NCBI RefSeq assembly: GCF_000227745.2
Contig: NC_018012.1
Span: 1,893,478 to 1,957,477 of the forward strand
DNA from: Thiocystis violascens DSM 198
GTDB lineage: Bacteria; Pseudomonadota; Gammaproteobacteria; Chromatiales; Chromatiaceae
DNA: 64,000 nt
Reading direction: 5' to 3'
Both the position numbers and the translations under genes were made by a program. Under the pieces are notes generated by a model, which saw only the letters and a list, made by a program, of their open reading frames with translations, did not search any database and had not been told where the DNA came from. The first letter of the stretch is position 1. Each line of letters starts with the position of its first letter. Shown piece after piece: positions 20,000 through 52,950 of this stretch.

Positions 20000-22420
20000 G
20001 TGCCTAACCTCGAATCTATGCCCCTGCTCGCCGCGCTACCCATGGGCGCGCTGCTGCTGGATCACCAGCAGCGCATCGTCGATGTCAACCAAGCTTTTCT
20101 GGATCTGCTTGGATACCCCGACTCGCTGGTACTCGGCCGGGTTTTCCACGAGCTGTTTCAAGATGCCCATCCCGAGCGACTGACAGCGCTGCTGAATTCG
20201 CCAGAAGGCCATTGCGTGCGCATGGACGTCGGTTTCGCGCACGCTGTCGCGGGGCCGCGGATGGCGTCAATCGCCTTCTCGCGCTGCTTCTCGGAAGGGC
20301 AAGACCGGCCGCGACTGCTCTCGATCGTCCTGGGCAATCCGCCGCAAACCGATCCGGATCCACTCCTGGCGCGCTCTGCCGACATCGTCTCCACCTCGCC
20401 CGACCGGATCGCGCTCGTGGATCGAGGACGCCGAATCAAGGCGGTCAACGATGCCTTTCTCCGAACCGTCGACCGCGCACGCGACGAACTCATCGATCAG
20501 GATGTCAAGAATCTCGGCGGCGACGATCAACTGACCGCCTGCCTCGATCGCAACCTCGGCCCTTGCCTCGATAGCGGGCGGATTCTGATCGAGGATATCC
20601 GCGAGACACGCGGTGACGGAGCGCCTCGCGACGCCGAGGTGCGTCTCTTCCCGCATCATGACGCAGAAGGGACGATCACCGGCGTCATCGTCGACATCCG
20701 GGATGTCACGGCCAGCCGGGACGCGGAACGGCGCCTGTTGCAATCCGCCGCCGTGTACGCAGCCACCTCCGAAGGGGTTCTGATCACGGATGCCGCAGGC
20801 TTGATCGTCGCGGTCAACCCCGCCTTTACCCGGATCACCGGCTATACCGAGTCCGAGGTGCTGGGTCAAAAGCCAAACCTGTTGAACTCCCACTGGCATC
20901 CGCGCAGCTATTTTGTCGGAATGTGGCGCCTGCTGTCGCGGCAGGGTTCCTGGCAGGGCGACATCTGGAACCGCCGCAAGGATGGCGAAATCTATCTGCA
21001 AAAACTCACCATCCGGCGCGTCCTGGACGCGCACGGCAAGGTCGTCAATTTCGTGGGCGTCTTCGCCGCGCGCAACCATGCGCCGCCGCGGCGCACGGGC
21101 CATCTGATCCATTACGACGCCTTGACCAAACTGCCCAACCGCCTGCTCTTCGAGTCCCGGCTTGAGCACGCGATTGAACTCGGACGGCGGAAAGCGTCGC
21201 CGCTGGCTCTGGTTCTGTTCGATCTGGACCATTTTGCGCACATCAACTCCAGTCTGGGTCATCAGCTCGGCGACCAATTGCTGCGCGCGGTCGCGCTCCG
21301 GTTACGCGGCGTTATTCGTCCTTCCGACACTCTGGCCCGACTGCGCGCCGACCAGTTCGGACTCCTCTTCGAGGAGATCGAACGGATTACGGAGGTCGAG
21401 GACATCGCCCGGCGTCTTCAGGCGGTCTTGTGCGCCGATCTGCAGGTGAGCAACCATCAGGTTTTCCTCACGGCGAGTATCGGCGCAGCCATCGATGTCG
21501 ACATGAAAAGCGACCGTAACGCACTGTTCGCCCATGCCGAATCCTCCCTTCGGTCGGCCAAACGCCAGGGACGCAACGGTCTCCTGATCTCCCGGATCGA
21601 ACCCGGCAAGGCGGGTCATGAGCACCAGCGCCTGATCGATCTGCTGCGGACCGGACTCGTCAAAGGGGAATACAGACTGATGTACCGCCCCCGCGCGGAC
21701 TTGGAAACGGGGGTCCACACGAGCGCCGAGGTGCTGATCCGCTGGGATCAAGAGGAAATCGGCACCGTCCCGCCAGAACGCTTCCTGACCCTGGCCAATG
21801 AAAGCGGATTCATGGCCGAACTTGGCGAGTGGGAACTCGCAATGGCCTGTCGGCAACTCCAGCATTGGCTGGGGAAGGGTTTCGCCATCGGCGGTTTGTC
21901 CATCCATGTCTCCGAGGCGCAGCTCACGCGCGGCAATCTGATCCAGATCCTCGAACGCCTGCTGGTGGAGAACCCGCTGACGGCCAACCGGCTCGATCTG
22001 GAATTCAACGAATCGCTGCTCCAGAAACACCCCGAACAGATCGCCGGGGTTTTCGACGGATTACGCCGGCTTGGCGTCTCGATCACCTTGAATGACGTGG
22101 GGGCTGGCTGGACCTCGCCAGCGGCGTTGCGGCGACTGCCGATCAAGACCCTCAGGATTCATCCCAACTTCATCGAGTCCCTGCCCGAATCGCACGACGA
22201 TCTGGCCGTGGTCCAAGCGCTCGTCGCCATGGCCCAGGCGCTGGATCTGGAGATCCTGGCCGATGGGGTGCGCACCGACGAGCAGCGACAATTGCTACTG
22301 ACCATCGGCTGCCAGCAGGCCCAGGGCGCACTGTTCGGAGAAGCCGTATTCGCGCCGCACTTCGAGCACAGACTCGATCCCAAACCATGTTCATTCCCGC
22401 ACAACGCGCTCGAAAATTAA
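20000..22420 (+). CDS. PAS-PAS-GGDEF-EAL protein with degenerate catalytic motifs
   Basis: An 806-residue soluble signalling protein. N-terminal PAS-like regions (about 8-125 and 130-245) and a well-formed PAS/PAC at about 250-370 (YAATSEGVLITDAAGLIVAV, NLLNSHWHP) precede a GGDEF domain opening HYDALTKLPNRLLFESRL and an EAL domain. The cyclase site reads A450-D-Q-F instead of GG(D/E)EF. The EAL motif reads E577-V-L, the DDFGTG element reads NDVGAG, and the following KID element reads RIH. I infer that neither cyclic-di-GMP synthesis nor hydrolysis is likely, and that it is a sensor/adaptor. The start is a GTG at 20000; an ATG at 20018 is possible. Confidence 0.85.
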   Translation: MPNLESMPLLAALPMGALLLDHQQRIVDVNQAFLDLLGYPDSLVLGRVFHELFQDAHPERLTALLNSPEGHCVRMDVGFAHAVAGPRMASIAFSRCFSEGQDRPRLLSIVLGNPPQTDPDPLLARSADIVSTSPDRIALVDRGRRIKAVNDAFLRTVDRARDELIDQDVKNLGGDDQLTACLDRNLGPCLDSGRILIEDIRETRGDGAPRDAEVRLFPHHDAEGTITGVIVDIRDVTASRDAERRLLQSAAVYAATSEGVLITDAAGLIVAVNPAFTRITGYTESEVLGQKPNLLNSHWHPRSYFVGMWRLLSRQGSWQGDIWNRRKDGEIYLQKLTIRRVLDAHGKVVNFVGVFAARNHAPPRRTGHLIHYDALTKLPNRLLFESRLEHAIELGRRKASPLALVLFDLDHFAHINSSLGHQLGDQLLRAVALRLRGVIRPSDTLARLRADQFGLLFEEIERITEVEDIARRLQAVLCADLQVSNHQVFLTASIGAAIDVDMKSDRNALFAHAESSLRSAKRQGRNGLLISRIEPGKAGHEHQRLIDLLRTGLVKGEYRLMYRPRADLETGVHTSAEVLIRWDQEEIGTVPPERFLTLANESGFMAELGEWELAMACRQLQHWLGKGFAIGGLSIHVSEAQLTRGNLIQILERLLVENPLTANRLDLEFNESLLQKHPEQIAGVFDGLRRLGVSITLNDVGAGWTSPAALRRLPIKTLRIHPNFIESLPESHDDLAVVQALVAMAQALDLEILADGVRTDEQRQLLLTIGCQQAQGALFGEAVFAPHFEHRLDPKPCSFPHNALEN

Positions 22421-22491: not shown

Positions 22492-25101
22492 ATGCCTGTC
22501 CCCGATCTGGCGCCCTTCCCGGAAAACCCTGGCCTGGTCGATGCCTACTCGCCGCTGGCCGGTCGCTATGACGAGATGCGCACCGCCGATGGCGAGGTGC
22601 GTCCGCAATGGCAGTATCTGCTCGATGCGCTGCGCACGCTGGGTCCGGCCGGCATCGAGGAACGCTGGCGCGAGGCTTCGCGCCTGATTCGCGACAACGG
22701 CGTCACCTACAATCTGCATGGCGATCCCCAGGGCGTCTCGCGGCCCTGGCAACTGGATCTGCTACCGCTCCTGATCCGTAGCGACGAGTGGGCGGAACTG
22801 GAACGCGGCCTGATCCAGCGCGCCGAACTCTTCAACCTCATACTGCTCGATCTCTACGGCTCCCGCGATCTGATCCGAACCGGACTGCTGCCGGCCGAGC
22901 TGATCGACGGCAACGCCAGCTATCTGATCGCCTGCCACGGCATCGAGGTCGCGGGCGGGCGCCCCCTGGTCCAGTATGCGGCGGATCTGACACGGCTGCC
23001 CGATGGCCATTGGAGAGTGATCGGTGACCGGACGCAAAGCCCCATGGGTGCGGGCTATGCGCTGGAAAACCGGGTGGTGTTGTCGCGGGTGCTGCCCAGT
23101 CTGTTCCGGGACTCGCATGTGCACCGCCTGGCCGGCTTCTTCCGCTCCATGCGCCGCACCCTGACCCGGCTGGCGCCGCGCGTGGCCGAACACGCGCGGA
23201 TCGTGGTGCTCACGCCCGGCCCGCAAAACGAAGCCTATTTCGAACACGCCTATCTGGCCAACTATCTCGGCTATACCCTGGTCCAGGGCGGGGATCTCTC
23301 GGTGCGCGACGGCGCGCTCTGGTTGCGCACCCTGGGGCGACTGGAGCGCATCGACGCGGTCCTGCGACAGGTCAACGATCTCTGGTGCGATCCGCTGGAA
23401 CTGCGCGAGGACTCCATGCTGGGCGTTCCCGGCATGTTGCAGGCCGCGCGCGCAGGCAACCTGATTCTGGCCAACGCGCTGGGCAGCGGGATTCTCGAAC
23501 ACCCGGCGCTCGCGGCCTTCCTGCCCCGCATCTGCCAGCAGCTTCTCGGCGAGTCGCTGGTCCTGTCGGACATCCCGACCTGGTGGTGTGGCGACCCCGA
23601 CTCGCTCGCCCGGGTGTTGAACAGTCTCGATAGCCTGGTCGTCAAGCCCCTGCCGTCGTCTCATCTCATGACGGGCGACAGATCGGCGGGACCGTCGGAA
23701 CTTTTTCCAGGGGCAATGGAGCCGGCCGCGCGCGCGGCGTTGATCAAGGCGATCCAGGCCAATCCAGGCGGCTACGTCGCCCGCGAACGGGTTCAACCCT
23801 CGACCGCGCCGGCACTCATCGACCAGCATCTGGAACCGCGCCCCAGCGTTCTGCGTACCTTCCTGATCGCGGAAGAGGATGGCTATGCCGTGATGCCCGG
23901 CGGGCTCGGGCGCGTCGCCCTGAACCAGGAAACCGCGCCGGTCTCCAATCAACTCGGCGGACTGGGCAAGGACGTCTGGGTGCTGGCCTCGGAGCCGGAA
24001 CGCCAGGAGAGTCTGCTGGCCGCGTCCGATACGCAAACCCCCGCGGTCGTGCAGGAGAGCACGGTCTCCAGCCGGGTCGCCGACAATCTGTTCTGGATCG
24101 GCCGCTATGCCGAACGCGCCGAGGGTCTGGTGCGTCTGCTGCGGATCACGATTTTCAAGTTCTCGGAGCGGGCCGATTATCCGCTGTCCAAGGTCACCTC
24201 TTCCTGCCTGAGATCCCTGCTGGAGGCATTGACCAATCAGACCCAATCCTTTCCCGGCTTCGTCGGCGCCGGGGCGGACGAGCGTCTGCGCAACCCGATC
24301 CCCGAGTTGCTGTCGCTGATCACCGATCCCGCACGACTCGGCGGACTGCCGCGCACGCTGGAGGCACTGGGACAGGCCGCCTACTCGGTGCGCGAACGTC
24401 TGTCGGCGGACACCTGGCGCATCGTCAGCGATATCGAGGGGCGGCTGGCGAACCTCACCGAGCATCCCCCCAGCCAGTTGTCGCAGGCGCTCGACGAACT
24501 CGACCCGCTGGTCACCTCGCTGGTCGCCTTCTCCGGTCTGACACAGGAAAACATGACCCACAACGAGGGCTGGCATTTTCTGGAGACCGGACGGCGGCTG
24601 GAACGCGGGAGCGCCATCGCCAGCCTGCTGCATTCCACCCTGGTACCGGTCGCCGGCGATCAGGAAGAAAACATGGTGATCGAGGCGGTGCTCGGCATCA
24701 CCGACAGTCTCATCACTTACCGGCGCCGCTACCACGCGGGCACCCGGGTCGGCGCACTGCTGGATCTGGTGCTCCAGGACGAAGGCAATCCACGCGCCCT
24801 GGCCTATCAGCTGGCAATGCTCGAACGTCTTGTCGCCGAACTTCCCCGCGGCGATCTGGTGGTTGGACGCACCACGGCGGAGAAACTGGTTCTCAAGAGT
24901 CTGACCGGGATTCGCCTGACCGAGATCGATCATCTGATCCAAGCGCATAAACAGGGTACCCGACGGGTCGTTCTGGCCAAGATGCTCGGTGAGCTGAGTA
25001 CCGAGCTCGCCGCCATCTCGGATGCCATCACCGCCCAGTATTTCCGCCACGAGGAACAGCCGCACAGTCTGCTGCGACGCACCGGGACGCCCGCGCCATG
25101 A
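22492..25101 (+). CDS. Circularly permuted ATP-grasp / alpha-E fusion protein
   Basis: An 869-residue protein. Residues 1 to about 470 match the circularly permuted ATP-grasp family (DUF404/407 type): QWQYLLDALRTLGP, NGVTYNLHGDPQG, WQLDLLPLLI, AYFEHAYLANYLGYTLVQG and DPLELREDSMLG. Residues about 520-860 match the all-helical alpha-E domain (DUF403), opening SSRVADNLFWIGRYAERAE. In many bacteria these are two neighbouring genes; here they are one chain. ATP-grasp enzymes of this group are predicted to form peptide-like amide bonds, but substrate and product are unknown. The stop overlaps the start of the transglutaminase gene (ATGA), so the two are translationally coupled. Confidence 0.9.
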   Translation: MPVPDLAPFPENPGLVDAYSPLAGRYDEMRTADGEVRPQWQYLLDALRTLGPAGIEERWREASRLIRDNGVTYNLHGDPQGVSRPWQLDLLPLLIRSDEWAELERGLIQRAELFNLILLDLYGSRDLIRTGLLPAELIDGNASYLIACHGIEVAGGRPLVQYAADLTRLPDGHWRVIGDRTQSPMGAGYALENRVVLSRVLPSLFRDSHVHRLAGFFRSMRRTLTRLAPRVAEHARIVVLTPGPQNEAYFEHAYLANYLGYTLVQGGDLSVRDGALWLRTLGRLERIDAVLRQVNDLWCDPLELREDSMLGVPGMLQAARAGNLILANALGSGILEHPALAAFLPRICQQLLGESLVLSDIPTWWCGDPDSLARVLNSLDSLVVKPLPSSHLMTGDRSAGPSELFPGAMEPAARAALIKAIQANPGGYVARERVQPSTAPALIDQHLEPRPSVLRTFLIAEEDGYAVMPGGLGRVALNQETAPVSNQLGGLGKDVWVLASEPERQESLLAASDTQTPAVVQESTVSSRVADNLFWIGRYAERAEGLVRLLRITIFKFSERADYPLSKVTSSCLRSLLEALTNQTQSFPGFVGAGADERLRNPIPELLSLITDPARLGGLPRTLEALGQAAYSVRERLSADTWRIVSDIEGRLANLTEHPPSQLSQALDELDPLVTSLVAFSGLTQENMTHNEGWHFLETGRRLERGSAIASLLHSTLVPVAGDQEENMVIEAVLGITDSLITYRRRYHAGTRVGALLDLVLQDEGNPRALAYQLAMLERLVAELPRGDLVVGRTTAEKLVLKSLTGIRLTEIDHLIQAHKQGTRRVVLAKMLGELSTELAAISDAITAQYFRHEEQPHSLLRRTGTPAP

Positions 25102-26000
25102 AATTTCGCGTCCAGCATCTCACCCGCTACGAGTATGCCGAACCGGTTTCGCTGTGCCATAGCATCGCCCACCTGAAACCGCTCCAGACCCGGCGTCAAC
25201 GCTGCCTGTCGAGTCAGCTTCGCGTCGATCCCTGGCCGGCCGTCATGCGCGAGCACGAGGATTTTTTCGGGAACCGGGTAAATTATTTTTCGATCCAGCA
25301 AGCCCACAACGCGCTGGAAGTCACCGCCACCAGCGAGATCGAGATCACCCACATCGCGCTCCCCGAGGCGGACAAGACGCCCCCCTGGGAACGGGTGGTC
25401 GCCCGACTGTACGACAAGGGCGACGGCCTGATGACCAACGCACGGATCTTTACCCTCCCTTCGCCCCAGGTACCGCCGGATCCGGCCGCCCGCGACTATG
25501 CCACCGCCTCCTTTCCGGCCGGGCGACCAATCCTGGAGGCGACGTTGGACTTGATGGGGCGCATCTATCGCGAGTTCGAGTACGATCCTCACTCGACCAC
25601 CATCGCCACGCCAATCGCCGAGGTCATGGAACAGCGTCGCGGCGTCTGTCAGGACTTCGCGCACATCGCCATCGCCGCGTTGCGCGGGTTCGGTCTGGCG
25701 GTTCGTTATGTCAGCGGTTATCTGGAAACCCTGCCGCCGCCCGGCCAGGTCAAACTCCAGGGAGCCGACGCCTCGCACGCCTGGTTCTCGGTGCTGATTC
25801 CCGAACTGGGCTGGGTCGATTTCGATCCGACCAACGACCAGATCCCCGGCGAGCAGTACATCACCACCGCGATCGGACGGGATTTTCAGGATGTCACACC
25901 CCTGCGCGGCATCTTCTATGGCGGCGGCACCCACGACCTGCTGGTTGCCGTCGATGTCAACCGGATCGCCGAACCCGTGCCGGCGATCCCGCCCGCTTGA
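25098..26000 (+). CDS. Transglutaminase-like cysteine protease-fold protein
   Basis: A 300-residue protein with the bacterial transglutaminase N-terminal region (MKFRVQHLTRYEYAEPVSLC) and the catalytic core. Its triad is RRGVCQDFAHI (Cys184), ADASHAWFSV (His227) and GWVDFDPTND (Asp). It is the usual partner of ATP-grasp/alpha-E genes and is thought to cleave or process the amide-linked product. It overlaps the upstream gene by four bases and is followed closely by an unknown membrane-anchored protein. There is no signal peptide, so it is cytoplasmic. Confidence 0.92.
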   Translation: MKFRVQHLTRYEYAEPVSLCHSIAHLKPLQTRRQRCLSSQLRVDPWPAVMREHEDFFGNRVNYFSIQQAHNALEVTATSEIEITHIALPEADKTPPWERVVARLYDKGDGLMTNARIFTLPSPQVPPDPAARDYATASFPAGRPILEATLDLMGRIYREFEYDPHSTTIATPIAEVMEQRRGVCQDFAHIAIAALRGFGLAVRYVSGYLETLPPPGQVKLQGADASHAWFSVLIPELGWVDFDPTNDQIPGEQYITTAIGRDFQDVTPLRGIFYGGGTHDLLVAVDVNRIAEPVPAIPPA

Positions 26001-26022
26001 GCGAGTAACGCCCCTGTTCCGT

Positions 26023-27261
26023 TTGATCAAAGCCTTGAGTTGGCTGTCGATCGTCAGCGTGATCCTCGCCCTGGCGCTCGGCGCCCTGTTCCTACCGGAC
26101 AGTCGCCCCATCGTCGAACAAGATCGCGCCATCACCGCTGCCGAACGCGCCTGGGCCAGACACTGGGTCGCCGCCAATCGTCCTCGGGGCCGGCAGCCTG
26201 GCGAATTGATGACGATCGGACTTTCCGAGCGCGAGGCCACTCTGCTCGCCAACGAACTGCTCGGCCGCTTCGGTCAGGGACGCGCGGCAGTTCGCCTGGA
26301 CGCGGGTCGCGCCACCATCGACGCCTCGCTAGCCCTACCCTGGAACCCGCGCGGCAGCTTCGTCAACCTGGAACTGGGACTGGTCGCGAATGGCTCCCTG
26401 CCGAAGATCGAGACGGCCCGGCTGGGCGGGGTTCCGCTCCCTGGGACGCTGGTTCAGGCACTGGCGGAGCGTGCCCTGGCGGCCGTGGTGAATAGCCAAC
26501 TGCTCCAACAGGTCGACCTTGAAGACGACCGGATGCGCATCGTCTACGAATGGCGCCCCCATCTGCTGGAGCGCATCGGCAGCGGTTTCGTCGCCGATGC
26601 CGATTTGCCGAATCTGCTGCGTTATCAAAACGACCTGACGAAGATGCTGGCGGATCGCACCAGACGCGGGCCGGTCCAACTCGCCGATCTGCTCGCACAT
26701 CTCCTGTCCAGGGCCGGGGCGCAACCTGCGGACGCCGATCCGATCGCCGAGAATCGCGCCATCTTCATGGTCCTGGCCGCCTATGTGAACGGTCGGACCA
26801 TCCGCGATCCGGCGGACGCCACGGCCAGCCCGAAGGCGTCCCGCCCCCATCCGGTTCTGTTGCGTGGGCGTCAGGATCTGAGCCAGCATTTCATGACCTC
26901 GGCGGCCCTGGCGATCCAGGGAGACGACACGCTGTCCGGGATGGTCGGCTGGTACAAGGAGATGTCCGACGCCAACGGCGGCAGCGGTTTCAGCTTCGCC
27001 GACATGGCCGCCAACCGCGCCGGGATTCGGCTTGCTCGGCTCGCGACCGGCAACCGGGAGGACGCCAGGCGCCTGCAACGGATCGCCAGACAGGGTTTGG
27101 CCGAGGACGATTTCATGCCAGCCATCGATGGACTACCCGAAGGCATCGACCAACAGACGTTCGCGGCGAACTTTAGCGGTACCAGCCAGGCCGACTATCA
27201 ACGCATCATCGCCCACATCGATCGCCGGATCGATGCCCGTCGGCTGTTTCGGGAACTCTGA
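26023..27261 (+). CDS. Uncharacterised protein with one N-terminal membrane segment
   Basis: About 412 residues, not recognised. An N-terminal hydrophobic helix (LSWLSIVSVILALALGALFL) is followed by a large soluble part rich in Ala, Leu and Arg, with segments such as GDDTLSGMVGWYKEMSD, GGSGFSFADMAANRAG and DDFMPAIDGLPEGID. It has the look of an enzyme or binding domain outside the inner membrane. The start is uncertain: no ATG precedes the helix, and TTG at 26023 (MIKALSW) is a guess; CTG at 26014 is another. It begins about 22 bases after the transglutaminase stop, so it is probably part of that operon and may act on the same product. Confidence 0.65.
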   Translation: MIKALSWLSIVSVILALALGALFLPDSRPIVEQDRAITAAERAWARHWVAANRPRGRQPGELMTIGLSEREATLLANELLGRFGQGRAAVRLDAGRATIDASLALPWNPRGSFVNLELGLVANGSLPKIETARLGGVPLPGTLVQALAERALAAVVNSQLLQQVDLEDDRMRIVYEWRPHLLERIGSGFVADADLPNLLRYQNDLTKMLADRTRRGPVQLADLLAHLLSRAGAQPADADPIAENRAIFMVLAAYVNGRTIRDPADATASPKASRPHPVLLRGRQDLSQHFMTSAALAIQGDDTLSGMVGWYKEMSDANGGSGFSFADMAANRAGIRLARLATGNREDARRLQRIARQGLAEDDFMPAIDGLPEGIDQQTFAANFSGTSQADYQRIIAHIDRRIDARRLFREL

Positions 27262-27268
27262 TACCGCA

Positions 27269-27979
27269 TCAGGACGTCCGCGCCACGGCCCAGACATCGA
27301 CCTGCTCCACCCCGGCCTTGAGAAAGTCACGGCTCAATTCGGCCACGGTGCTGCCGGTAGTCACCACATCGTCCACGATCGCCACCCGTCTCCAGGGCGG
27401 CTGACGGGTCAAGGCGAATGCCCCACGGAGGTTGCGACGGCGCGCGCGCGGATCGAGTCCGACTTGGGGCTGCGTTGCCGCGATCCGGATACAACACTTT
27501 GCATCGACCGGTAAATCCAGCTCCCGGCCAAGCGCCCGGGCAATTTCGAGCGCCTGATTGTAGCCACGCTCGCGCAGCCGCCCGGAATGCAGCGGAACCG
27601 GTACCAAGACATCCGGCAACGCCAGGGCATGCTCCCGAATCGTCTCGGCCAGACACTGCCCGAGCAACCGCGCGAAATTTAGCCGACCGCGAAACTTCGC
27701 CCCGACCACCAGCGACGGCACGGCCGACTCATAGCGAAAGACCGTGATACAGCGTTCAAAGGGCGGGGCTTTTTTCTGACACCGCCCGCAGAGCATTCCT
27801 GGAGGAACCGACCCCTCTAACGGCAGCGCGCAGCGGAAGCACGACGCCCGATTCCGCGGCAGTTCGGCATCGCAACCGGCGCAGAGATCCCGACCGCCCA
27901 CGCCCGGTGCCCCGCACAGCACGCAGGTCGCGGGAAACAGGACCGAGATCAGAGACGCCAAAGCGATTGTTTGAATCAT
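27269..27979 (-). CDS. comF: ComF-family phosphoribosyltransferase-like protein
   Basis: A 236-residue protein of the ComF/GntX family, linked with DNA uptake and use. A zinc-finger-like N-terminus has paired cysteines ([28 protein letters not shown]). A phosphoribosyltransferase domain follows with the PRPP-binding motif [18 protein letters not shown] and the [11 protein letters not shown] motif. The start is the ATG at 27979. Upstream frame extension runs into the bio promoter and is rejected. It is divergent from bioB, and the BirA operator begins one base upstream of its start codon. Confidence 0.93.
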
Positions 27980-28012
27980 CTGTAAACCAAAAAAGCAAAG
28001 ATTAGTTGACAA
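27980..28012. promoter_or_regulatory. BirA (biotin repressor) operator
   Basis: CTGTAAACC (27980-27988), a 15-bp spacer and AGTTGACAA (28004-28012). The consensus is TTGTAAACC-N15-GGTTTACAA; the half-sites match 8 of 9 and 7 of 9. It overlaps the -35 box of the bioB promoter and touches the comF start, so biotin-loaded BirA should repress bioB and may affect comF. Confidence 0.8.
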
Positions 28013-28033
28013 GGGAGCCACGCGATCTAGGAT
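28006..28033 (+). promoter_or_regulatory. bioB promoter
   Basis: TTGACA (28006-28011), 16-bp spacer, TAGGAT (28028-28033). The -35 box lies inside the right half of the BirA operator, the arrangement expected for repression by occlusion. The leader to bioB is about 65 bases. Confidence 0.7.
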
Positions 28034-28103
28034 AGCCCTCTTTTGTGCCAGCCGATCCTGCTCGCCCGATCGCGCACTTAACACCGATATCGCAACCCAA
28101 ACC

Positions 28104-29105
28104 ATGCCATCACGCAAGTCCGCCATTCGCCACGACTGGACCATCGACGAGATTCAGACGCTGCTCGACCAACCCCTGAACGATCTTCTGTTCAAGGCTC
28201 AAAGCACCCACCGCGCCCATTTCGATCCCAACCGGATTCAGGTCAGCACCCTGCTCAGCATCAAGACCGGCGCCTGCCCCGAAGACTGCGGCTATTGCGC
28301 CCAGAGCGCGCACCACGACACCAATCTGGAACGCGAACGCCTGCTGCCGCTCGACGACGTGCTGACCGCCGCCCGCGCCGCCTGCGCCGAGGGCGCGACC
28401 CGCTTCTGCATGGGCGCGGCCTGGCGCAATCCGACCGACAACAACCTGGACCAGGTGGTCGCCATGATCGAAGGCGTCCACGCGCTCGGGATGGAAACCT
28501 GCGTCACGCTCGGCATGCTCACCGGCCCCCAGGCGCGCCGGCTCAAGGATGCCGGGCTGGATTACTACAATCATAATCTGGACACCTCGCCCGAGTTCTA
28601 CGGCCAGGTCATCACCACCCGCACCTATCAGGACCGGCTCGACACCCTGGAGCATGTCCGCGAGGTTGGGCTCAAAACCTGTAGCGGCGGCATTCTCGGC
28701 ATGGGCGAATCGCGTCGCGACCGCGCCTCCATGCTCCGCCAGCTCACCAACCTGCCCGCCCACCCGGAGTCGGTACCGATCAACCTGCTGGTCCAGGTCG
28801 AAGGCACCCCGCTCTTCGGTCAGGCCGCGCTCGATCCCTTCGAGTTCGTGCGCGTGGTCGCCGCCACTCGCATCCTGATGCCGGCCTCCCATGTGCGACT
28901 GTCCGCCGGTCGTCACGAGATGAGCGACGAGTTACAGGCGCTGTGTTTTCTCGCCGGCGCCAACTCCATCTTTTATGGCGAGCGCCTGCTGACCGCGTCC
29001 AATGCCGAAGCCGACCGTGACCGCGCGCTCTTTGCGCGTTTGGGTCTGACCTTTGAAGAAGTCGACGCCGAGCGTACCGAACCAGGGGCTTGTCACAAAG
29101 AGTAG
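28104..29105 (+). CDS. bioB: Biotin synthase
   Basis: A 333-residue radical-SAM enzyme that inserts sulfur into dethiobiotin. The 4Fe-4S cysteines are in [13 protein letters not shown] (C58, C62, C65), followed by [27 protein letters not shown] and [10 protein letters not shown], all standard for Bio[11 protein letters not shown], near the C-terminus, provides the Arg ligand of the 2Fe-2S cluster. First gene of the bioBFHCD operon, under a BirA operator. The ribosome-binding site before the ATG at 28104 is weak. Confidence 0.97.
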
Positions 29106-32638: not shown

Positions 32639-33517
32639 ATGAAAACGGACAACCTGTTTTTCCGACTATTTCAGGCACTACCCACGCTGGTGCTTGAATT
32701 GGCCGAGATCGAGATCGAAATCGCCGATGCCTGCCGTTATGAATTCCGTGCCGAGGAGGTCAAACAGACCGCCTTTCGTCTCGATGGATTGTTGATTCCT
32801 CCGACCGAAACGCTATCAGCTCCACTGATCTTTGTGGAGATCCAGGCACAGGCGGACGATGACTTTTACGGACGTTTCTTCTCCGAGATTTTTCTGTATC
32901 TTTACCGCTCGGTACCGCGCCGTCCCTGGCTGGCGGTGGCGATCTATCCGAGCCGCGCAACGGAACGCCCGGATACCAGATACAACTCGCTGCTCAGTAC
33001 ACCAGAGGTGCGACGCGTGTATCTGAACGACTGGCGCGAGCGACCGGCTCCGACGCTGGGGTTGCAATTGATCCAACTGCTGATTGCCCCAAGGAAGAAA
33101 GCCTGCCAACAGGCGGTTCTTTTGGCCGGACAAGCCCGTAAGGGAGTTCTTGGCGCGGAACTTTCAGAAGCGACGATGTTGGATTTGATTGAAACCATTG
33201 TGGTCTATCGACTACCTCAACTGACACGCGAGGAAATTCAAACCATGCTCGGAATGACCGATCTCGATCTCAAACAGAGTCGTTTTTACCAAGAGGTCTT
33301 TGCCGAAGGGCGACAGGAAGGACGGCAGGAAGGACGGCAGGAAGGACGGCAGGAAGGCGAAGCCGCCATCCTGCTACGTCTGATCGCGCTGAAATTTGGT
33401 GCACCCGGAAAGTCGTTGCGACAACGGGTGCTCACCGCCGACGCCGAGACTCTGCTGCTCTGGTCGGAGCGGTTACTCACCGCGCAGACCCTGAATGACG
33501 TCTTGGACGAAACTTAA
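32639..33517 (+). CDS. DUF2887/Rpn-like PD-(D/E)XK nuclease-fold protein
   Basis: A 292-residue protein of the Rpn/DUF2887 type, a group related to PD-(D/E)XK nucleases and often found near mobile DNA. It begins [20 protein letters not shown]; the nuclease-like residues lie in [10 protein letters not shown] and [10 protein letters not shown] short tandem repeat near residue 221 encodes (GRQE)x4 from a 12-bp unit (about 33308-33357). After it comes a DUF4351-like helical tail ending [12 protein letters not shown]. It starts 12 bp after bioD but is not a biotin gene, and it is convergent with greA with a four-base overlap. Activity here is untested. Confidence 0.8.
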
Positions 33518-40270: not shown

Positions 40271-41464
40271 GAGGGTGTAGACAAAATCAAACCGTTGTGG
40301 TCAACCGCCGCAGCAGGATGCGCGCCTCCGCCAGCCAAACCCAGGTTTCGGAGACCGCTGGCAGACGGTCATGATGCATGATCAATCGACGGGCACGCTC
40401 ATTCCACGCATGGGTGCGCTCGACAACCCAGCGCTTCGGCAGCGGAACGAAGCCGTCGGCGTTGGCGATCACCACTCGGTCAGGCGCCCCGTCCACGTGC
40501 CAGGAGCCAACGCTTTTGTTGGCTGGATGGCGCACGACTTCCACGCGGATCGCGTGGGTCTGCTCGGTGGTTTGGGCAAATTGACCGGCGTAGGCGCTAT
40601 CGACAAACAGCGTGTTGATCTGGGGGTACTTGGCGGCCGCGTCAGCGACGGCGCCCGAGGCGGCATCGCGGTCCTGAAGATTGGCCGCGACCACGCTCAC
40701 CGCCAACACGAACCCCAAGGTATCGACCACCAGGCTGCGCTTGCGCCCCTTGACCTGCTTGCCCGCATCAAAGCCGCTCGGTCCACCCTGCGGCGAGCCG
40801 CGGGTCGATTGCGCATCCAGCACCGCCGCCGTCGGCGCGATCTCACGCCCCTCGCGTTCGCGCCATTGCCCCCGCAGTCGATCATGCATCTGCTCAAACT
40901 TCCCAGCCGCACTCCAACGGCGAAACGTCTTGTAGACATTCTGCCAAGGCGCGAAATCGTGCGGCAGCATCCGCCACGCGCACCCCGTGCGCACCACGTA
41001 GCAACACGCCTCCAGGATGCTCCGGCGCGACACGCGGGGCGGTTGACCCCGCCCGCCCGGCATCTCAAAGAGAGCGGCGACCAAGTCCCACTCCGCATCG
41101 GTCAGACAACTTGGGTAGCTTTGGTCGGGGTCGTGGCGACGATGCGCATCCGTATACCCATACCGACGCGGCGTTGCGCGCGCTTGCGCCTCGAGACCAC
41201 TCTCGCCCCGGAGGCGCGTGACGCCCGCCTCCCGCAAGGACTTGCGAATCGTTGCTTCATGAGCCTCGATTCCCGTCCGTGCCGCGAGTTCCCGGGCAAT
41301 CTCTGACAGCGTGGAGGTCGGGCGATCCGTGACAATTTGACGCAATACCGCTTGCTCCGCCTCGTGAATCTTGGGGGGACGACCAGCTTTCGACATCAGC
41401 GCACACCAGCTCAGTTGTAGACTGGTATACAAATAGCAGCTCAATTATTTTTGTCTACACCCTC
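40271..41464 (-). mobile_element. Intact IS5-family insertion sequence, 1194 bp
   Basis: Terminal inverted repeats GAGGGTGTAGACAAAA (left) and its complement at 41449-41464 (right). A TAA on each side (40268-40270 and 41465-41467) is a likely 3-bp target duplication, as in IS427-like IS5 elements. One transposase gene on the minus strand fills it. The element looks complete and potentially mobile. Confidence 0.9.
40287..41396 (-). CDS. IS5-family transposase
   Basis: A 369-residue DDE transposase. An N-terminal winged-helix region (GRPPKIHEAEQAVLRQIV, then SEIARELAARTG and RKSLREAGV) is followed by a DUF4096-type segment (LTDAEWDLVAALFEM) and the catalytic core: VLDAQSTRG (first Asp), LFVDSAYAGQFA (second Asp) and WVVERTHAWNERARRL (Glu). 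The start is the ATG at 41396 (MSKAGRPPK); upstream codons lie in the inverted-repeat region. The chain is uninterrupted. Confidence 0.93.
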   Translation of the reverse strand: MSKAGRPPKIHEAEQAVLRQIVTDRPTSTLSEIARELAARTGIEAHEATIRKSLREAGVTRLRGESGLEAQARATPRRYGYTDAHRRHDPDQSYPSCLTDAEWDLVAALFEMPGGRGQPPRVSRRSILEACCYVVRTGCAWRMLPHDFAPWQNVYKTFRRWSAAGKFEQMHDRLRGQWREREGREIAPTAAVLDAQSTRGSPQGGPSGFDAGKQVKGRKRSLVVDTLGFVLAVSVVAANLQDRDAASGAVADAAAKYPQINTLFVDSAYAGQFAQTTEQTHAIRVEVVRHPANKSVGSWHVDGAPDRVVIANADGFVPLPKRWVVERTHAWNERARRLIMHHDRLPAVSETWVWLAEARILLRRLTTTV

Positions 41465-48381: not shown

Positions 48382-48414
48382 CGACATTTGACATAAGATC
48401 GAGAGGTTTATCCG

Positions 48415-48645
48415 ATGAGTAATTTTGTCATCTGTGTCAATAATGAAGACAACCCCGCAAGCCTGATATTAGGCAAAGTTTATCCCGTACTTCCGGATAT
48501 GGATGCCGCTGCGCACAAGATGGTTCGCATTATTGACGAGGACCAATCAGAGTCTGACGGCTATCTCTACGAAGCATCCATGTTTGTCAATATCGAGTTG
48601 CCAGAAATGGTCAAGCGAGTTCTGGAACATCGAGCGGATGCATAA
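48415..48645 (+). CDS. Small conserved hypothetical protein, 76 residues
   Basis: Begins MSNFVICVNNEDNPASLILG, with KVYPVLPD, MVRIIDEDQSESDGYLYEAS and FVNIELP. I recall small proteins with this pattern (ASL..K.Y.VLPD, RVIDE..YLY.A..F) from many bacteria, without a known function. A GAGAGG ribosome-binding site stands about eight bases before the ATG. It is the first gene of the island and is 33 bp after subunit A, so it is probably read from the ATPase transcript. Confidence 0.7.
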   Translation: MSNFVICVNNEDNPASLILGKVYPVLPDMDAAAHKMVRIIDEDQSESDGYLYEASMFVNIELPEMVKRVLEHRADA

Positions 48646-48653
48646 CCCTGTAG

Positions 48654-48858
48654 CCCGCGTAGGATGGGTAGAGTGACCGCGCGCTGATCTCTCGGATTCG
48701 CACTAAAGGTCATCGGTCACGATACCCATCGAACCACCGCACTGATGATTAACCTTAGAGTGCTATCGGAAAACTGGGAGCGTATGACTTGTGTGCGGAT
48801 CTGCAATGCCGACGCTTGGGTTCGATGGGTTTCGCTTCGCTCTACCCATCCTACGCTG
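48654..48858. repeat. MITE-like repeat, copy 1 (205 bp)
   Basis: Inverted ends CGTAGGATGGGTAGAG (48658-48673) and CTCTACCCATCCTACG (48840-48855). Closely similar to the copy at 49359 along its length. Non-coding. Elements ending GTAGGATGGGTAGAG are common dispersed repeats in several bacterial groups. Confidence 0.85.
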
Positions 48859-48894
48859 ACTCACTGTTATGCTGAAAACAAAGAGAGGTGAACC

Positions 48895-49080
48895 ATGTCT
48901 GCCGTGAAGGAAAGAATGGCCGATGTGATCCAGAATCAGCCTGAAGATGCAACGTATGAAGAAATCCTCAGAGAACTCGCTTTTGAGAAAATGGTGTCGT
49001 CAGGGTTAAAAGACTCAAGGGAGGGAAAGACAATTTCAAATGAAGAAATGGAGCGCAGGATTAGCGCATGGCAGAAATAA
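48895..49080 (+). CDS. Antitoxin of a ParE-type toxin-antitoxin pair
   Basis: A 61-residue protein, MSAVKERMADVIQNQPEDAT.., ending MERRISAWQK, of the short helical antitoxin type in which ..EEILRELAFEKMVSSGLKDS forms a helix pair. It overlaps the toxin gene by 13 bases, the usual coupling. The ribosome-binding site AGAGAGG lies just before the ATG. Assignment rests mainly on its position before a RelE/ParE toxin. Confidence 0.8.
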   Translation: MSAVKERMADVIQNQPEDATYEEILRELAFEKMVSSGLKDSREGKTISNEEMERRISAWQK

Positions 49081-49367
49081 GGTGGACAGAAGCGGCTGTA
49101 ACATGGCTCCGAAATATCTACGATTACATTTCAGAAAATAACCCAATTGCTGCACAGAGCGTAATAGAAGGAATTTATGAAAAGACACAAGTCTTAGAAC
49201 GCTTTCCAGAGATCGGCTATAAATACCGTGATGAACCAGATGGGCAAGTAAGAATTCTTCTTTATGGCCATTATAGAATTGCCTATCTCATCAGAAAAGA
49301 AAGTGTCGAAATTCTTGGTGTTTTCCACGGCCCAATGGAAATCGAAAGGTACATCAAGCCCGCGTAG
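49068..49367 (+). CDS. RelE/ParE-superfamily toxin
   Basis: A 99-residue toxin: EIRWTEAAVTWLRNIYDYIS, then a helical hairpin, FPEIGYKYRDEPDGQVRILL and YGHYRIAYLIRKESVEILGV with the family Arg-Ile-Ala-Tyr strand, then FHGPMEIERYI. ParE toxins poison gyrase and RelE toxins cut mRNA; which applies is not clear. The last three codons before the stop (AAG CCC GCG) and the stop TAG lie in the MITE-like repeat that begins at 49359, so the C-terminus is repeat-encoded. Confidence 0.88.
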   Translation: MAEIRWTEAAVTWLRNIYDYISENNPIAAQSVIEGIYEKTQVLERFPEIGYKYRDEPDGQVRILLYGHYRIAYLIRKESVEILGVFHGPMEIERYIKPA

Positions 49368-49642
49368 GATGGGTAGAGTGACCGAGCGCCGATCTCTCGA
49401 ATTCGCACTGAAGGTCATCGGTCACGAAACCCATCGAACCACCGCACCGATGCTCAACCTTAGAGTGCTATCGGAAAACTAGGAGCGTATGACTTGGGTG
49501 CGGATCGGCAATGCCGACGCCTGGGTTCTACGCTGGCTTAGAGTGCTATTGGAAAACTAGGAGCGTATTACTTGGGTGAGGCATCTGCAATGCCGACGCT
49601 TGGATTCGATGGATTTCGATGCGATCTACCCATCCTACGCTG
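49359..49642. repeat. MITE-like repeat, copy 2 (284 bp, internally expanded)
   Basis: Left end CGTAGGATGGGTAGAG (49363-49378), right end ATCTACCCATCCTACG (49623-49638). It is longer than copy 1 because a 42-bp segment (TTAGAGTGCTAT.. to ..CTTGGGTG) occurs twice, at 49459-49500 and 49537-49578, in a duplication of about 78 bp. It supplies the toxin stop codon. Confidence 0.85.
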
Positions 49643-49883
49643 GCTGCTAGTGGCACAAGATAATGAGCAAAATTGTATCTGTCCAATTGGAATGGAAATA
49701 TTCTCCTGAAACGTACCTAGAAGAACCGATTTCAATTCCATTTGATGTAGGTGATTTAGAGATAAAGGATGGAGTTGCAATCGCAAGAATAGATCCCGAG
49801 AAATACCATTCGGATAGTTCAATACGGGAAGTATTGACCCGAAAAATCCAAAGTAGATTGCATGCTGTCCAGATCATAACGCA

Positions 49884-50003
49884 TAATTCTACTTTGTTAG
49901 CTTGACATAAGCTTATGATTTTCAAATATTATTTTCAGGGAAAATTTTATTTGGAAATGGCAGATCATGGCTAACGCGATTGGTAGCGAAACCGATGCGA
50001 TGT
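49884..50003. repeat. Perfect 120-bp tandem duplication, copy 1
   Basis: Identical over 120 bp to 50004-50123. It covers three target bases, the left inverted repeat of the IS701-like element, its promoter region and the first codons of the transposase. Copy 1 has the same ATG (49967), but its frame stops after 16 codons at the junction. Confidence 0.95.
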
Positions 50004-50123
50004 TAATTCTACTTTGTTAGCTTGACATAAGCTTATGATTTTCAAATATTATTTTCAGGGAAAATTTTATTTGGAAATGGCAGATCATGGCTAACGCGAT
50101 TGGTAGCGAAACCGATGCGATGT
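50004..50123. repeat. Perfect 120-bp tandem duplication, copy 2
   Basis: Second copy, leading into the long transposase frame that starts at 50087. The junctions share TAA, suggesting slippage or microhomology-mediated duplication. Confidence 0.95.
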
Positions 50124-51494
50124 TAAAAAACATGGTTGGTAACCTCTCCGCTCATCTGGAGGATTATCACGAATTTTTTCAAAACGAAACAGCTGATGGT
50201 CATGAACTGAGTCGAGCTTACATCATGGGTCTTCTCAAAACTGAAGCCGGAAAACGGAATCTCGAACGCATCAACGAAGAAATTGATGTGTCCGGTGGTG
50301 ATGGTTATCAACGGATCCAACAGTTCATCACAGATTCACCGTGGTCGGCGGGAAACCTCATCGGTGCGATCGCCCAAGACACCTCAAGTCTGTATGCGAA
50401 TCAGCCGAATTATCGCGGTCGGGATGTCGGCTACATCATTGATGAGTCAGCGCATCTCAAGAAAGGCAAGTATTCCGTTGGCGTCGCGCGGCAATATGCC
50501 GGTGTCATTGGTAAGGTTGAGAATTGCCAGGTAGGCGTTTATGCCAGCTTAGTTTGGGAATCACAGAGCACGTTAATTAATGAGCGGTTGTTCCTTCCAA
50601 CGTCCTGGACCGCTGATTTAAAGCGATGTGACCAAGCGGGTATTCCTGAAGAGGCACGTCAGTTTAAAACGAAGATCGAACTCGCACTGGAGATGATTCA
50701 ATCCGATCTGGCGGCGGGCGTAGACATTGGTTGGGTGGGCGGTGATGGCCTGTACGGACACGGGTTAGAGCTTGGTGTTTCTTTAGATAACATAGGGTTA
50801 AATTTTCTGCTTGATGTTCATTGCGATCAGATGATCTATCCCCCTCAAACCCATTCTATCGGTTCCGGAATCCGCTGGGCGAGGACGAAAGCCAACCAAA
50901 CTTCAAGCTGATCGCGACCCCACGCAAGTGAGATGGTATGCCGACCATCTTTATCCTTTCCAATGGCGCACGATGGCCGTTCGCAATGGGGCCAAAGGGC
51001 CGATCACGCTGTCCGTTCATACCGCTCCCGTGTGGGTTTGGGATGGCAAGTCGGAGCGCGTGACCGAGCGGGTATTGGTCATCAGCCGAAATCACGCGGA
51101 CAACAAGATCAAATACTCACTCAGTAATGTCGATTATCGGAGCACCCCGATCGAAAGGCTGGCTTACATGCAAGCACAGCGCTATTGGGTTGAACGGGCA
51201 TTTCAAGAAGCCAAAAGCGAATTAGGAATGTCAGATTATCAAGTCAGAAAATGGAATGCCTGGCACCACCATATGGCGCTGGTGATGTTGTCGCTGTCCT
51301 TTATTGTTAAAGAGCGTCTTTTGCACAAAACCGATTATCCATTGGTGAGTTGCCGTGATCTTCGGCTTCTCATCATCGCTTTACTACTCAACGATCCGGA
51401 TGCGGTCGAAAAAAGAATCCAGCAAATGCGGGTCAGGCATGAGCAAAGGCGCAAGGATATCGAGCGTTATTACAAGCTGACCGCGACGGGATAG
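50087..51494 (+). pseudogene. IS701-family transposase, frameshifted
   Basis: Frame 1 (50087-50911) holds MANAIGSETDAMLKNMVGNL, YIIDESAHLKKGKYSVGVAR (first Asp) and DIGWVGGDGLYGHGLEL (second Asp), then loses the frame near 50865. The downstream frame (to 51494) continues GRGRKPTKLQADRDPTQVRW and WVERAFQEAKSELGM (Glu). Together they make a normal IS701 DDE transposase of about 468 residues. The shift is +1 and no A-rich slippery run was seen, so decay is more likely than programmed frameshifting. Confidence 0.85.
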
Positions 51495-52069
51495 TCAATG
51501 CGTTTGAATTAAAGTAACAAAGTAGAAATAAAGACTTCGAATTGAGTAAGCCGTCCCGAACGGATATTCGAGAAGATGGAAAAAGGAATCATTTTCTGGA
51601 ATGTGAATCTTGCATCATGACCATGAGTGCGGGAATAGTTGACTTAGTGGTTAAAGATAAAGATGGAAATATTGTCTCGGACACAAAAAGAGAGCGTTTA
51701 GATAAACAAAAGCGTTTTGCATCTCTTGTAGATAATCATATACATTCCGATGCTACGCTTGACCAAATGCTCAAGAGCTACCAAAAATCAGTCAAAGACC
51801 CTGATGATGAGTTGGTTCATTTATACGAAGTTAGAGATTCTCTCTCCAAGAAGTTTGGATCAAAGAAAGACGCAATACAAAAACTAGGCATCACAAACGC
51901 CGAGTGGGAAGAAATTGGAATATTGGCTAATACCCTTCCGCTCAAACAAGGTCGACACAGAGGCAAAGCTGTAGGTGCGCTCAGAAACGCAGCAACAGCC
52001 GAACTTGAGAAAGCACGTAAATCTGTTGCTTACCTAATTGAAAAATACTTAGAGTATCTGGAAATGTGA

Positions 52070-52549
52070 TAAATCCACTAACAATCACATACACTCGGAC
52101 AGTAAAAACGCCGCTCCTTCGTCGCTCTACTTTTTTCTGCCGGTGATGTGAAATGTTAGGTGATATATCATGAGTTTTTCACATGCCAGAATGCACATGC
52201 CGAGGAGGAAATCCAAATTGTTCCAAGTGCGGTGGTTGGGGATGGGTTGGAGATAAAGTCTAGGGAGTTCAATGCGGCTATTTTCACGCAGTTTTGTTCC
52301 CGCAGACCCTTGGCGCACCGCAGCCGATGAGAGAAGCTTAAGTTACTGATTTAAAATAGCGTTACTCTATTATGCTTCGGGTTGAAAAACTGCATGAGCT
52401 AGAGACACTGAAAACAGGCCAGATTAAACACCCTACCAACACGCGCATCCTCTTTGCATGCGACTGTAAGCAGAAGCTACATTGAAAATTTAGCCTACGG
52501 CCTGGGCGCAAGCGGTTATCCAAACGATACAACTCTATGAGGTCATGAA
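52070..52549. other. Gene-poor stretch of the island
   Basis: Apart from the 26-codon Zn-ribbon frame at 52183, no supported gene is seen. Base composition is AT-rich compared with the operon. It may hold the hicBA promoter near 52500; no clear boxes were found. Confidence 0.5.
52183..52263 (+). CDS. Tiny Zn-ribbon-like ORF (26 residues), probably a gene remnant
   Basis: Encodes MPECTCRGGNPNCSKCGGWG then WVGDKV and a stop. The C-x-C-x6-C-x2-C-x-G-x-G pattern resembles a short metal-binding module found at the N-terminus of longer uncharacterised proteins. Here the frame stops right after it, so it may be a broken gene or a very small protein. There is no strong ribosome-binding site. Confidence 0.4.
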   Translation: MPECTCRGGNPNCSKCGGWGWVGDKV

Positions 52550-52762
52550 ATGAATCAAGAGTACACGGCCGTTGTAAAGCAAGATGGCGATTGGTGGATC
52601 GGCTGGATCGAGGAAGTCCCAGGCGTGAACTGCCAGGAACCGACTCGGCAGGAGTTGTTGCAATCGTTGCGTATCACGCTGAGGGAAGCCATCGAACTGA
52701 ATCGTCAAGACGCTTTGTGCGCGGCCGGATCGGAATACATGGAAGAAAAAATTGCGGTATGA
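52550..52762 (+). CDS. hicB: HicB-family antitoxin
   Basis: A 70-residue antitoxin with the partial RNase-H-like HicB fold: YTAVVKQDGDWWIGWIEEVP, GVNCQEPTRQELLQSLRITL and REAIELNRQD. GAGGT precedes the ATG at a suitable distance. Its stop overlaps the toxin start (ATGA). The antitoxin-first order is one of the two known hic layouts. No DNA-binding domain is attached. Confidence 0.85.
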   Translation: MNQEYTAVVKQDGDWWIGWIEEVPGVNCQEPTRQELLQSLRITLREAIELNRQDALCAAGSEYMEEKIAV

Positions 52763-52947
52763 AGCGAGCTGCTTTTCTAAAGTATCTGCGAGGACACGGT
52801 TGCGAACTTTTACGAGAAGGCGGCAGCCATTCCTGGTGGTGGAACCCGGTACAGAACAAACGCTCGGCCATTCCTCGTCACAATGAAGTCAACGATCTTC
52901 TTGCAGTCAAAATCTGTCATGACCTTGGCGTCAAACCGGTTAAATAA
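52759..52947 (+). CDS. hicA: HicA-family mRNA interferase toxin
   Basis: A 62-residue protein, MKRAAFLKYLRGHGCELLRE, then GGSHSWWWNPVQNKRSAIPR and HNEVNDLLAVKICHDLGV. It has the dsRNA-binding-like HicA fold with the catalytic His in GGSHS and the PRHNEV segment. HicA cuts mRNA when HicB is lost. It overlaps hicB by four bases and ends three bases before the V-ATPase subunit B start codon. Confidence 0.87.
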   Translation: MKRAAFLKYLRGHGCELLREGGSHSWWWNPVQNKRSAIPRHNEVNDLLAVKICHDLGVKPVK

Positions 52948-52950
52948 CAC

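Follow-up and report, generated by a model that had tools for sequence, protein, structure and literature searches.

In a 64,000-nucleotide stretch of the 5.02-Mb, single-contig genome of Thiocystis violascens DSM 198 (NC_018012.1, positions 1,893,478 to 1,957,477 of the forward strand; this whole stretch is called the window below), a gene that fuses an ATP-grasp domain to an Alpha-E domain overlaps a transglutaminase gene, and both are followed at once by a further gene with one membrane helix, here called gene 4. We consider it probable that these are two independent units standing side by side: an amidoligase pair (22492-26000) and gene 4 (26023-27261), the latter most likely an independent protein of the ClaspCone-1 type of the Lipocone superfamily. 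A preliminary description of this DNA had read all four genes as one operon and had left the last of them unrecognised; a single unit was not confirmed, and gene 4 proves to carry the residues of the ClaspCone group. A gene whose copy in the window has no match over the cut-off in Pfam or NCBIfam thus receives an identity that can be tested, and there is a caution that the close packing of gene 4 behind the pair should not be called operon membership.

Gene 4 is a real gene because 83 of the 210 genomes of the order Chromatiales that were searched encode a relative. Its likeliest start is a TTG at 26023, 22 bp past the transglutaminase stop codon, which would give a protein of 412 amino acids; the frame contains no ATG from that stop up to the membrane helix, and no clear ribosome-binding site was seen before the TTG. 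Ten residues are invariant in an alignment of 67 sequences from gamma-, beta- and delta-proteobacteria and a few others, with identities down to about 30% (D285, H289, G309, K312, E313, D316, G322, S324, D327, and G334), and the pattern D285-x3-H289, E313-x2-D316, S324-x2-D327-x6-G334 is present in every one of them. In the Lipocone superfamily, the active residues are described as a histidine on helix H2, a glutamate on H3, and an aspartate on H4, and the ClaspCone group within it as having an xD or DK motif four residues ahead of the H2 histidine, a second acidic residue accompanying the H3 glutamate, a serine that precedes the H4 aspartate by three positions and itself follows an aromatic residue, an asparagine four positions after that aspartate with a small residue ahead of it, and a glycine late in H4 (Burroughs, Nicastro, and Aravind, eLife 2025, PMC12419801). 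Compared with these rules by their published description, the window's gene 4 agrees with each: position 323 is aromatic throughout the family (F in 66 sequences, Y in 1), and N331 is preceded by A330, although this asparagine is an aspartate in 46 of the 67 relatives and Asn in only 21.

The architecture also resembles, in part, that of ClaspCone-1 proteins, which are described as having one or five membrane helices, either a TULIP domain or Ig-like and metallopeptidase domains before the Lipocone domain, and a Lipocone domain that has a four-helix fold and is of low hydrophobicity, hence soluble (PMC12419801). Gene 4 has an N-terminal membrane helix and a domain between this helix and the Lipocone core. 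The N-terminus is hydrophobic in 67 of 67 sequences (best 19-residue mean of at least 1.6), and for the C-terminal part the best 19-residue mean has a median of 1.32 and a maximum of 2.1. AlphaFold2 models the whole protein with a mean predicted local distance difference test score (pLDDT) of 87 and a predicted template modelling score (pTM) of 0.74, and residues 178-412 alone with 88.5 and 0.88. The model consists of a membrane helix at residues 2-23 (good confidence), a beta-rich domain, and then helices. The single helix and the short gap of about 22 bp given in the preliminary description both hold. D285 and H289 fall on helix 284-299, E313 and D316 on helix 302-319, and D327 and G334 on helix 325-342; two further helices (220-232 and 240-255) and a short strand (278-280) precede H2 in the model. 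Genes for an SGNH lipase or an MBOAT protein, given as neighbours of ClaspCone-1 genes (PMC12419801), do not adjoin gene 4 in the window, which is a difference from that group.

A second resemblance is to the DUF2279/YfiM lipoproteins, which have in common with gene 4 the motifs D-x3-H and E-x2-D-x6-F-S-x2-D-x6-G (with F or Y in gene 4). The YfiM model matches, weakly but consistently, 63 of the 67 members at E values up to 0.1 (best 1.9e-5) and the DUF2279 model 59 of them (best 1.7e-5), a comparison of the gene 4 profile with DUF2279 gives P 5.5e-4 where a transglutaminase control gives 0.21, and the spacing of residues within H2 and across H3-H4 is the same as in ten DUF2279 domains. The distance between H2 and H3 differs (24 residues from histidine to glutamate in gene 4, 41 in the first DUF2279 sequence), and gene 4 has a large N-terminal part, whereas the YfiM model covers only 106 positions. 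Several results weigh against assigning gene 4 to the Lipocone superfamily. The score of DUF2279 (PF10043) on the window's gene 4 is 16.6-18.4 bits where the curated cut-off is 28.6, and the YfiM score on this copy is likewise below its curated cut-off; the profile comparison with DUF2279 reaches a probability of 30% only, over 33 columns; and the fold searches gave no solved structure that clearly matches the Lipocone domain. Foldseek, run with the whole protein and with the Lipocone domain, returned no match at E ≤ 0.001, solved Lipocone relatives such as TelC were absent among the matches listed in the Lipocone-domain fold searches, and searches of PDB sequences with gene 4 or its alignments returned chance-level matches only. 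A human Wnt3a complex at rank 6 of the whole-protein fold search (E 0.12) was too weak and was not used. For the middle domain, VIA-align gives CETP (Z 4.9 over 119 residues, 5.2 Å), bovine salivary protein 30b (Z 4.4), BPI (Z 4.2), and YceB (Z 4.2), all of which we take to be of the TULIP type; these matches are weak, and since unrelated methyltransferases also score Z 4.2 in the same list, the TULIP likeness of this domain is only suggestive.

The chemistry predicted for Lipocone proteins is the removal or swap of phosphate-linked head groups, and ClaspCone-1 proteins are predicted to act in the periplasm on outer-membrane-bound lipids (PMC12419801). By its resemblance to these proteins, the product of gene 4 would be a periplasmic protein anchored in the inner membrane, whose TULIP-like domain may hold a lipid and whose Lipocone domain, with H289, E313, and D327, may cleave or exchange the phosphate-linked head group of that lipid. 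The literature found on ClaspCone proteins consists of this paper and a commentary; in it the head-group chemistry of these proteins stands as a prediction only, and we know of no biochemical test of their function; the gene 4 family, with a pattern invariant in 67 sequences, suits such a test. Alternatively, gene 4 could be a lipid carrier or anchor without enzymatic activity, its Lipocone-like domain having a purely structural role. The weakly TULIP-like middle domain would fit such a role, and inactive members of the Lipocone superfamily exist (PMC12419801), but a polar pattern that is kept without exception down to about 30% identity is unlike a decayed active site, and we regard this alternative as unlikely.

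The amidoligase pair is an ordinary, known one, closely coupled, with a mechanism that is poorly understood. It is ordinary because, in 60 of the 61 genomes of the order with a full-length fusion, the transglutaminase gene follows it on the same strand and the ends of the two matches are -1 to 233 bp apart; the single exception is G001, where the two genes lie on separate contigs. The preliminary description had recognised here a single chain joining ATP-grasp and Alpha-E, coupled by ATGA to a transglutaminase, and had assigned the three domains to a widespread but poorly understood set predicted to make and process peptide-like metabolites, and both statements are right. In Pfam, the fusion matches CP_ATPgrasp_2 at residues 92-476 (E 7.8e-145) and Alpha-E at residues 526-851 (E 1.1e-72), the transglutaminase, which starts inside the fusion's stop codon in the ATGA overlap, matches Bact_transglu_N (E 1.3e-27) and Transglut_core (E 6.4e-17), and all three domains of the set are thus over the cut-off in adjoining genes. 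The transglutaminase sequence contains GVCQDF, SHAW, and DFDPTN, in which the Cys, His, and Asp, presumably the catalytic triad, are invariant in ten relatives. Fusion matches of any kind occur in 103 of the 210 genomes of the order. In a sample of 274 Gammaproteobacteria, a fusion match at E ≤ 1e-30 is present in 79 genomes, and an uninterrupted frame across both domains in 22 (at most three candidates being scored per genome), that is, in the window's genome and 21 others; a transglutaminase gene stands beside the fusion in 11 of 11 other loci fetched from this class sample.

Judging by what is typical of these families, the circularly permuted ATP-grasp domain would activate a carboxylate with ATP in the cytoplasm and couple this carboxylate with an amine, the Alpha-E domain of the same chain would assist this chemistry, and the transglutaminase-like enzyme would make, exchange, or hydrolyse an amide bond in the product. 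The pair has the same domains in the same order as the amidoligase sets described by Iyer et al. (2009). For a Yersinia bercovieri relative, release of phosphate from ATP has been reported; a Burkholderia cenocepacia cluster of DUF404/DUF407, DUF403, and transglutaminase genes is described as dependent on NtrC and sigma-54 (PMC5491218), and a study of marine metagenomes placed these domains together with urea metabolism (PMC3597751). Both of these descriptions hint that the amidoligase set may belong to nitrogen metabolism. Published Anbu operons also contain ATP-grasp, Alpha-E, and transglutaminase genes (PMC5666114, PMC6376114), and on this analogy the pair might be an Anbu system that tags proteins for an ancestral proteasome-like particle. 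However, a proteasome-family search of the genome found no Anbu gene beside the pair, which has a GGDEF-EAL gene on one side and gene 4 on the other; the one match in the genome, a frame of 199 amino acids, lies on the opposite strand at a distance of about 26 kb and is far from the other ATP-grasp loci of the genome too. By its size we take this frame more likely to be HslV, and an Anbu role for the pair seems to us very improbable.

Three ATP-grasp/Alpha-E loci are present in the genome, and only the one in the window (22492-25101) is fused. The two others differ in their surroundings: one (L034, 1262000-1277000 of the genome) holds unfused ATP-grasp, Alpha-E, and transglutaminase genes with a gene for a low-molecular-weight phosphotyrosine phosphatase just upstream, and in the other (L035, 1375000-1390000) ATP-grasp and Alpha-E are followed by a FadL/TodX-type outer-membrane protein in place of the transglutaminase. 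In three genomes of the class sample (G392, G315, and G358), an unfused ATP-grasp gene lies a few kb from the fusion, an arrangement absent at the window's locus.

The separability of the two units is seen most directly in their occurrence across the order. Of its 210 genomes, 36 have both a full-length fusion and gene 4, 47 have gene 4 without a full-length fusion, 25 have a fusion without gene 4, and 102 have neither; gene 4 is separable from the pair because 47 of the 83 genomes with gene 4 do without the fusion and 25 of the 61 with the fusion do without gene 4. For these counts the transglutaminase matches were limited to the 65 strongest and the fusion matches to the 61 of full length, leaving out the partial fusion matches in G079, G158, G011, G027, and G055-G058, as well as five secondary gene 4 fragments that do not affect the total of 83. 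Where both units are present, gene 4 lies less than 300 bp from the transglutaminase and on its strand in 5 of the 36 genomes (G000, G004, G007, G098, and G100). Larger same-strand distances are 636-853 bp in five genomes, 1.9-2.2 kb in three, 15 kb in one, and 43 kb in one; two genomes have the genes on opposite strands at a distance of over 500 kb, and 19 have them on separate contigs. The adjacency of gene 4 to the pair is lineage-specific and limited to a few genera, and gene 4 as a fixed part of an operon is rejected on these counts of occurrence and distance. They also speak against the proposal that gene 4 is the export, anchor, or target component of the amidoligase system. The preliminary description had made its proposal depend on the conservation of gene 4 beside the pair in relatives: by these counts that conservation is largely, not wholly, lacking, gene 4 being adjacent to the pair in a few genera.

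The gene orders around the two units agree with this separation. A reverse-strand hexapeptide-type gene stands between the transglutaminase and gene 4 in six genomes (G019, G020, G120, G180, G112, and G113), and a single transcript is therefore unlikely in those six loci; they are six of the eight with a gap of 0.6-2.3 kb (G114 and G177 were left out), and Pfam was run on one of the intervening genes. G106 has a GGDEF-EAL gene that shares 62% identity with the one in the window; gene 4 comes next, about 150 bp further on, and the pair is absent. A GGDEF-EAL-like gene is found directly upstream of the fusion in eight other loci. Among 26 loci with a labelled gene 4, 14 have a ComF-type gene within 2.4 kb downstream of it, and in five of these 14 (G008, G104, G105, G145, and G150, of which G145 is near a contig end) the pair does not adjoin gene 4. 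Between the window and G007, gene 4 is 73% identical and the pair 95-96%; this faster divergence of gene 4 is not special because the neighbouring GGDEF-EAL gene is at 71%.

Gene 4 was also surveyed in the best 80 of 470 confirmed loci from a scan of named genomes, with fetched flanks of at most 6 kb on each side and often less. These loci come from gamma-, beta-, and delta-proteobacteria and a few others, and the fusion and the transglutaminase are both near gene 4 in eight of them, whose genera we take to be Chromatiaceae; in one further locus (L106) a weak transglutaminase match lies about 4.4 kb from gene 4. Within these flanks, no linkage of gene 4 to the pair was seen outside this family. 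The neighbours of gene 4 outside the Chromatiaceae include lgt, thymidylate synthase, HSP90, an ornithine-type decarboxylase, a short-chain dehydrogenase, CorA, and a helix-turn-helix gene, among which no common theme was found with one representative taken per neighbour type; the simple gene caller used for these neighbours missed gene 4 itself in L100, L148, and L152 and left it unlabelled in L056. In the class sample, gene 4 is present in 18 of 274 genomes, in two by partial match only, and four genomes have it together with a full fusion (G000, G362, G457, and G471). The two are adjacent only in the window's own genome; they are far apart on one contig in G457 and on different contigs in G362 and G471.

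Some of the order-wide results weigh against complete independence. Gene 4 and the fusion co-occur above expectation (odds ratio 3.1, Fisher P 3e-4, uncorrected for kinship), and partial fusion matches are present in three (G011, G027, and G058) of the 47 genomes that were entered as having gene 4 without the fusion. Different contigs may hide adjacency, and G178 looks like such a case. The two units are linked on the same strand within 2.3 kb in 13 of the 36 genomes that have both, in six genera, which is far above random; from this linkage and the excess co-occurrence, a loose functional tie is therefore possible. The units could then serve one pathway, in which a peptide-like group made by the pair in the cytoplasm would be moved by gene 4 to a periplasmic lipid, or exported or anchored by it. 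Besides the linkage, their common strand and the 22-bp gap in the window favour this, and so does a published parallel in which the gene of another Lipocone protein, YfiM-1, shares an operon with that of an ATP-grasp protein, and lipid head groups are predicted to be modified with peptides (PMC12419801). Set against it are the many genomes of the order that have only one of the two units, the intervening reverse-strand gene, gene 4 without the pair in G106, and the pair's presence at only a tenth of the named loci surveyed, and we think one shared pathway quite unlikely. There is a slimmer chance still that in a few purple sulphur bacteria the pair and gene 4 have been joined in a route that adds a peptide- or amino-acid-like group to an outer-membrane lipid, possibly under the control of the upstream gene for cyclic di-GMP (c-di-GMP) turnover. 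A joint peptide-lipid route, if true, would connect two poorly understood systems. Two independent units remain the reading we prefer for the locus, whose features are collected in Table 1.

Table 1. Genes and protein segments at the locus, in window coordinates.
Feature	Coordinates	Strand	Basis or remark
PAS-GGDEF-EAL gene (c-di-GMP turnover type)	20000..22420	+	Pfam EAL E 1.1e-53, GGDEF E 6.2e-39; context
ATP-grasp/Alpha-E fusion, 869 amino acids	22492..25101	+	Pfam CP_ATPgrasp_2 and Alpha-E
Transglutaminase-like protein, 300 amino acids	25098..26000	+	Pfam Bact_transglu_N and Transglut_core
Gene 4, most likely of the ClaspCone-1 type (Lipocone superfamily), 412 amino acids	26023..27261	+	Alignments of 35 and 67 sequences, AlphaFold2; TTG as likeliest start
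Gene 4, membrane helix, residues 2-23	26026..26091	+	AlphaFold2 model and hydrophobicity
Gene 4, middle domain, residues 46-177, weakly TULIP-like	26158..26553	+	VIA-align
Gene 4, putative Lipocone core helices H2-H4, residues 284-342	26872..27048	+	D285, H289, K312, E313, D316, S324, D327, G334
ComF-type gene, convergent with gene 4	27269..28144	-	Pfam DZR_2; context

The PAS-GGDEF-EAL gene ends 71 bp upstream of the fusion. For the gene that converges with gene 4 from the other side, we presume the name ComF, and the genes after it resemble biotin genes by eye. A scan for promoters and terminators gave nothing scoring above shuffled sequences. Directly after the biotin-like genes, a DUF2887 protein (32639-33517, forward strand, E 8.1e-64) has consecutive EGRQ repeats close to the C-terminal end. 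An IS4/5-type transposase at 40287-41444 on the reverse strand matches DUF4096 and DDE_Tnp_1 and has an extra N-terminal helix-turn-helix stretch. Further on, the region 48382-52950 is low in GC content, at 0.46-0.56 in 2-kb steps compared with about 0.63 around it; it contains a DDE_5 transposase piece (50087-50911, E 1.6e-40), a further frame after that, and a small frame that looks ParE-like by eye, and the genes on its flanks resemble, again by eye, subunits of a V-type ATPase.

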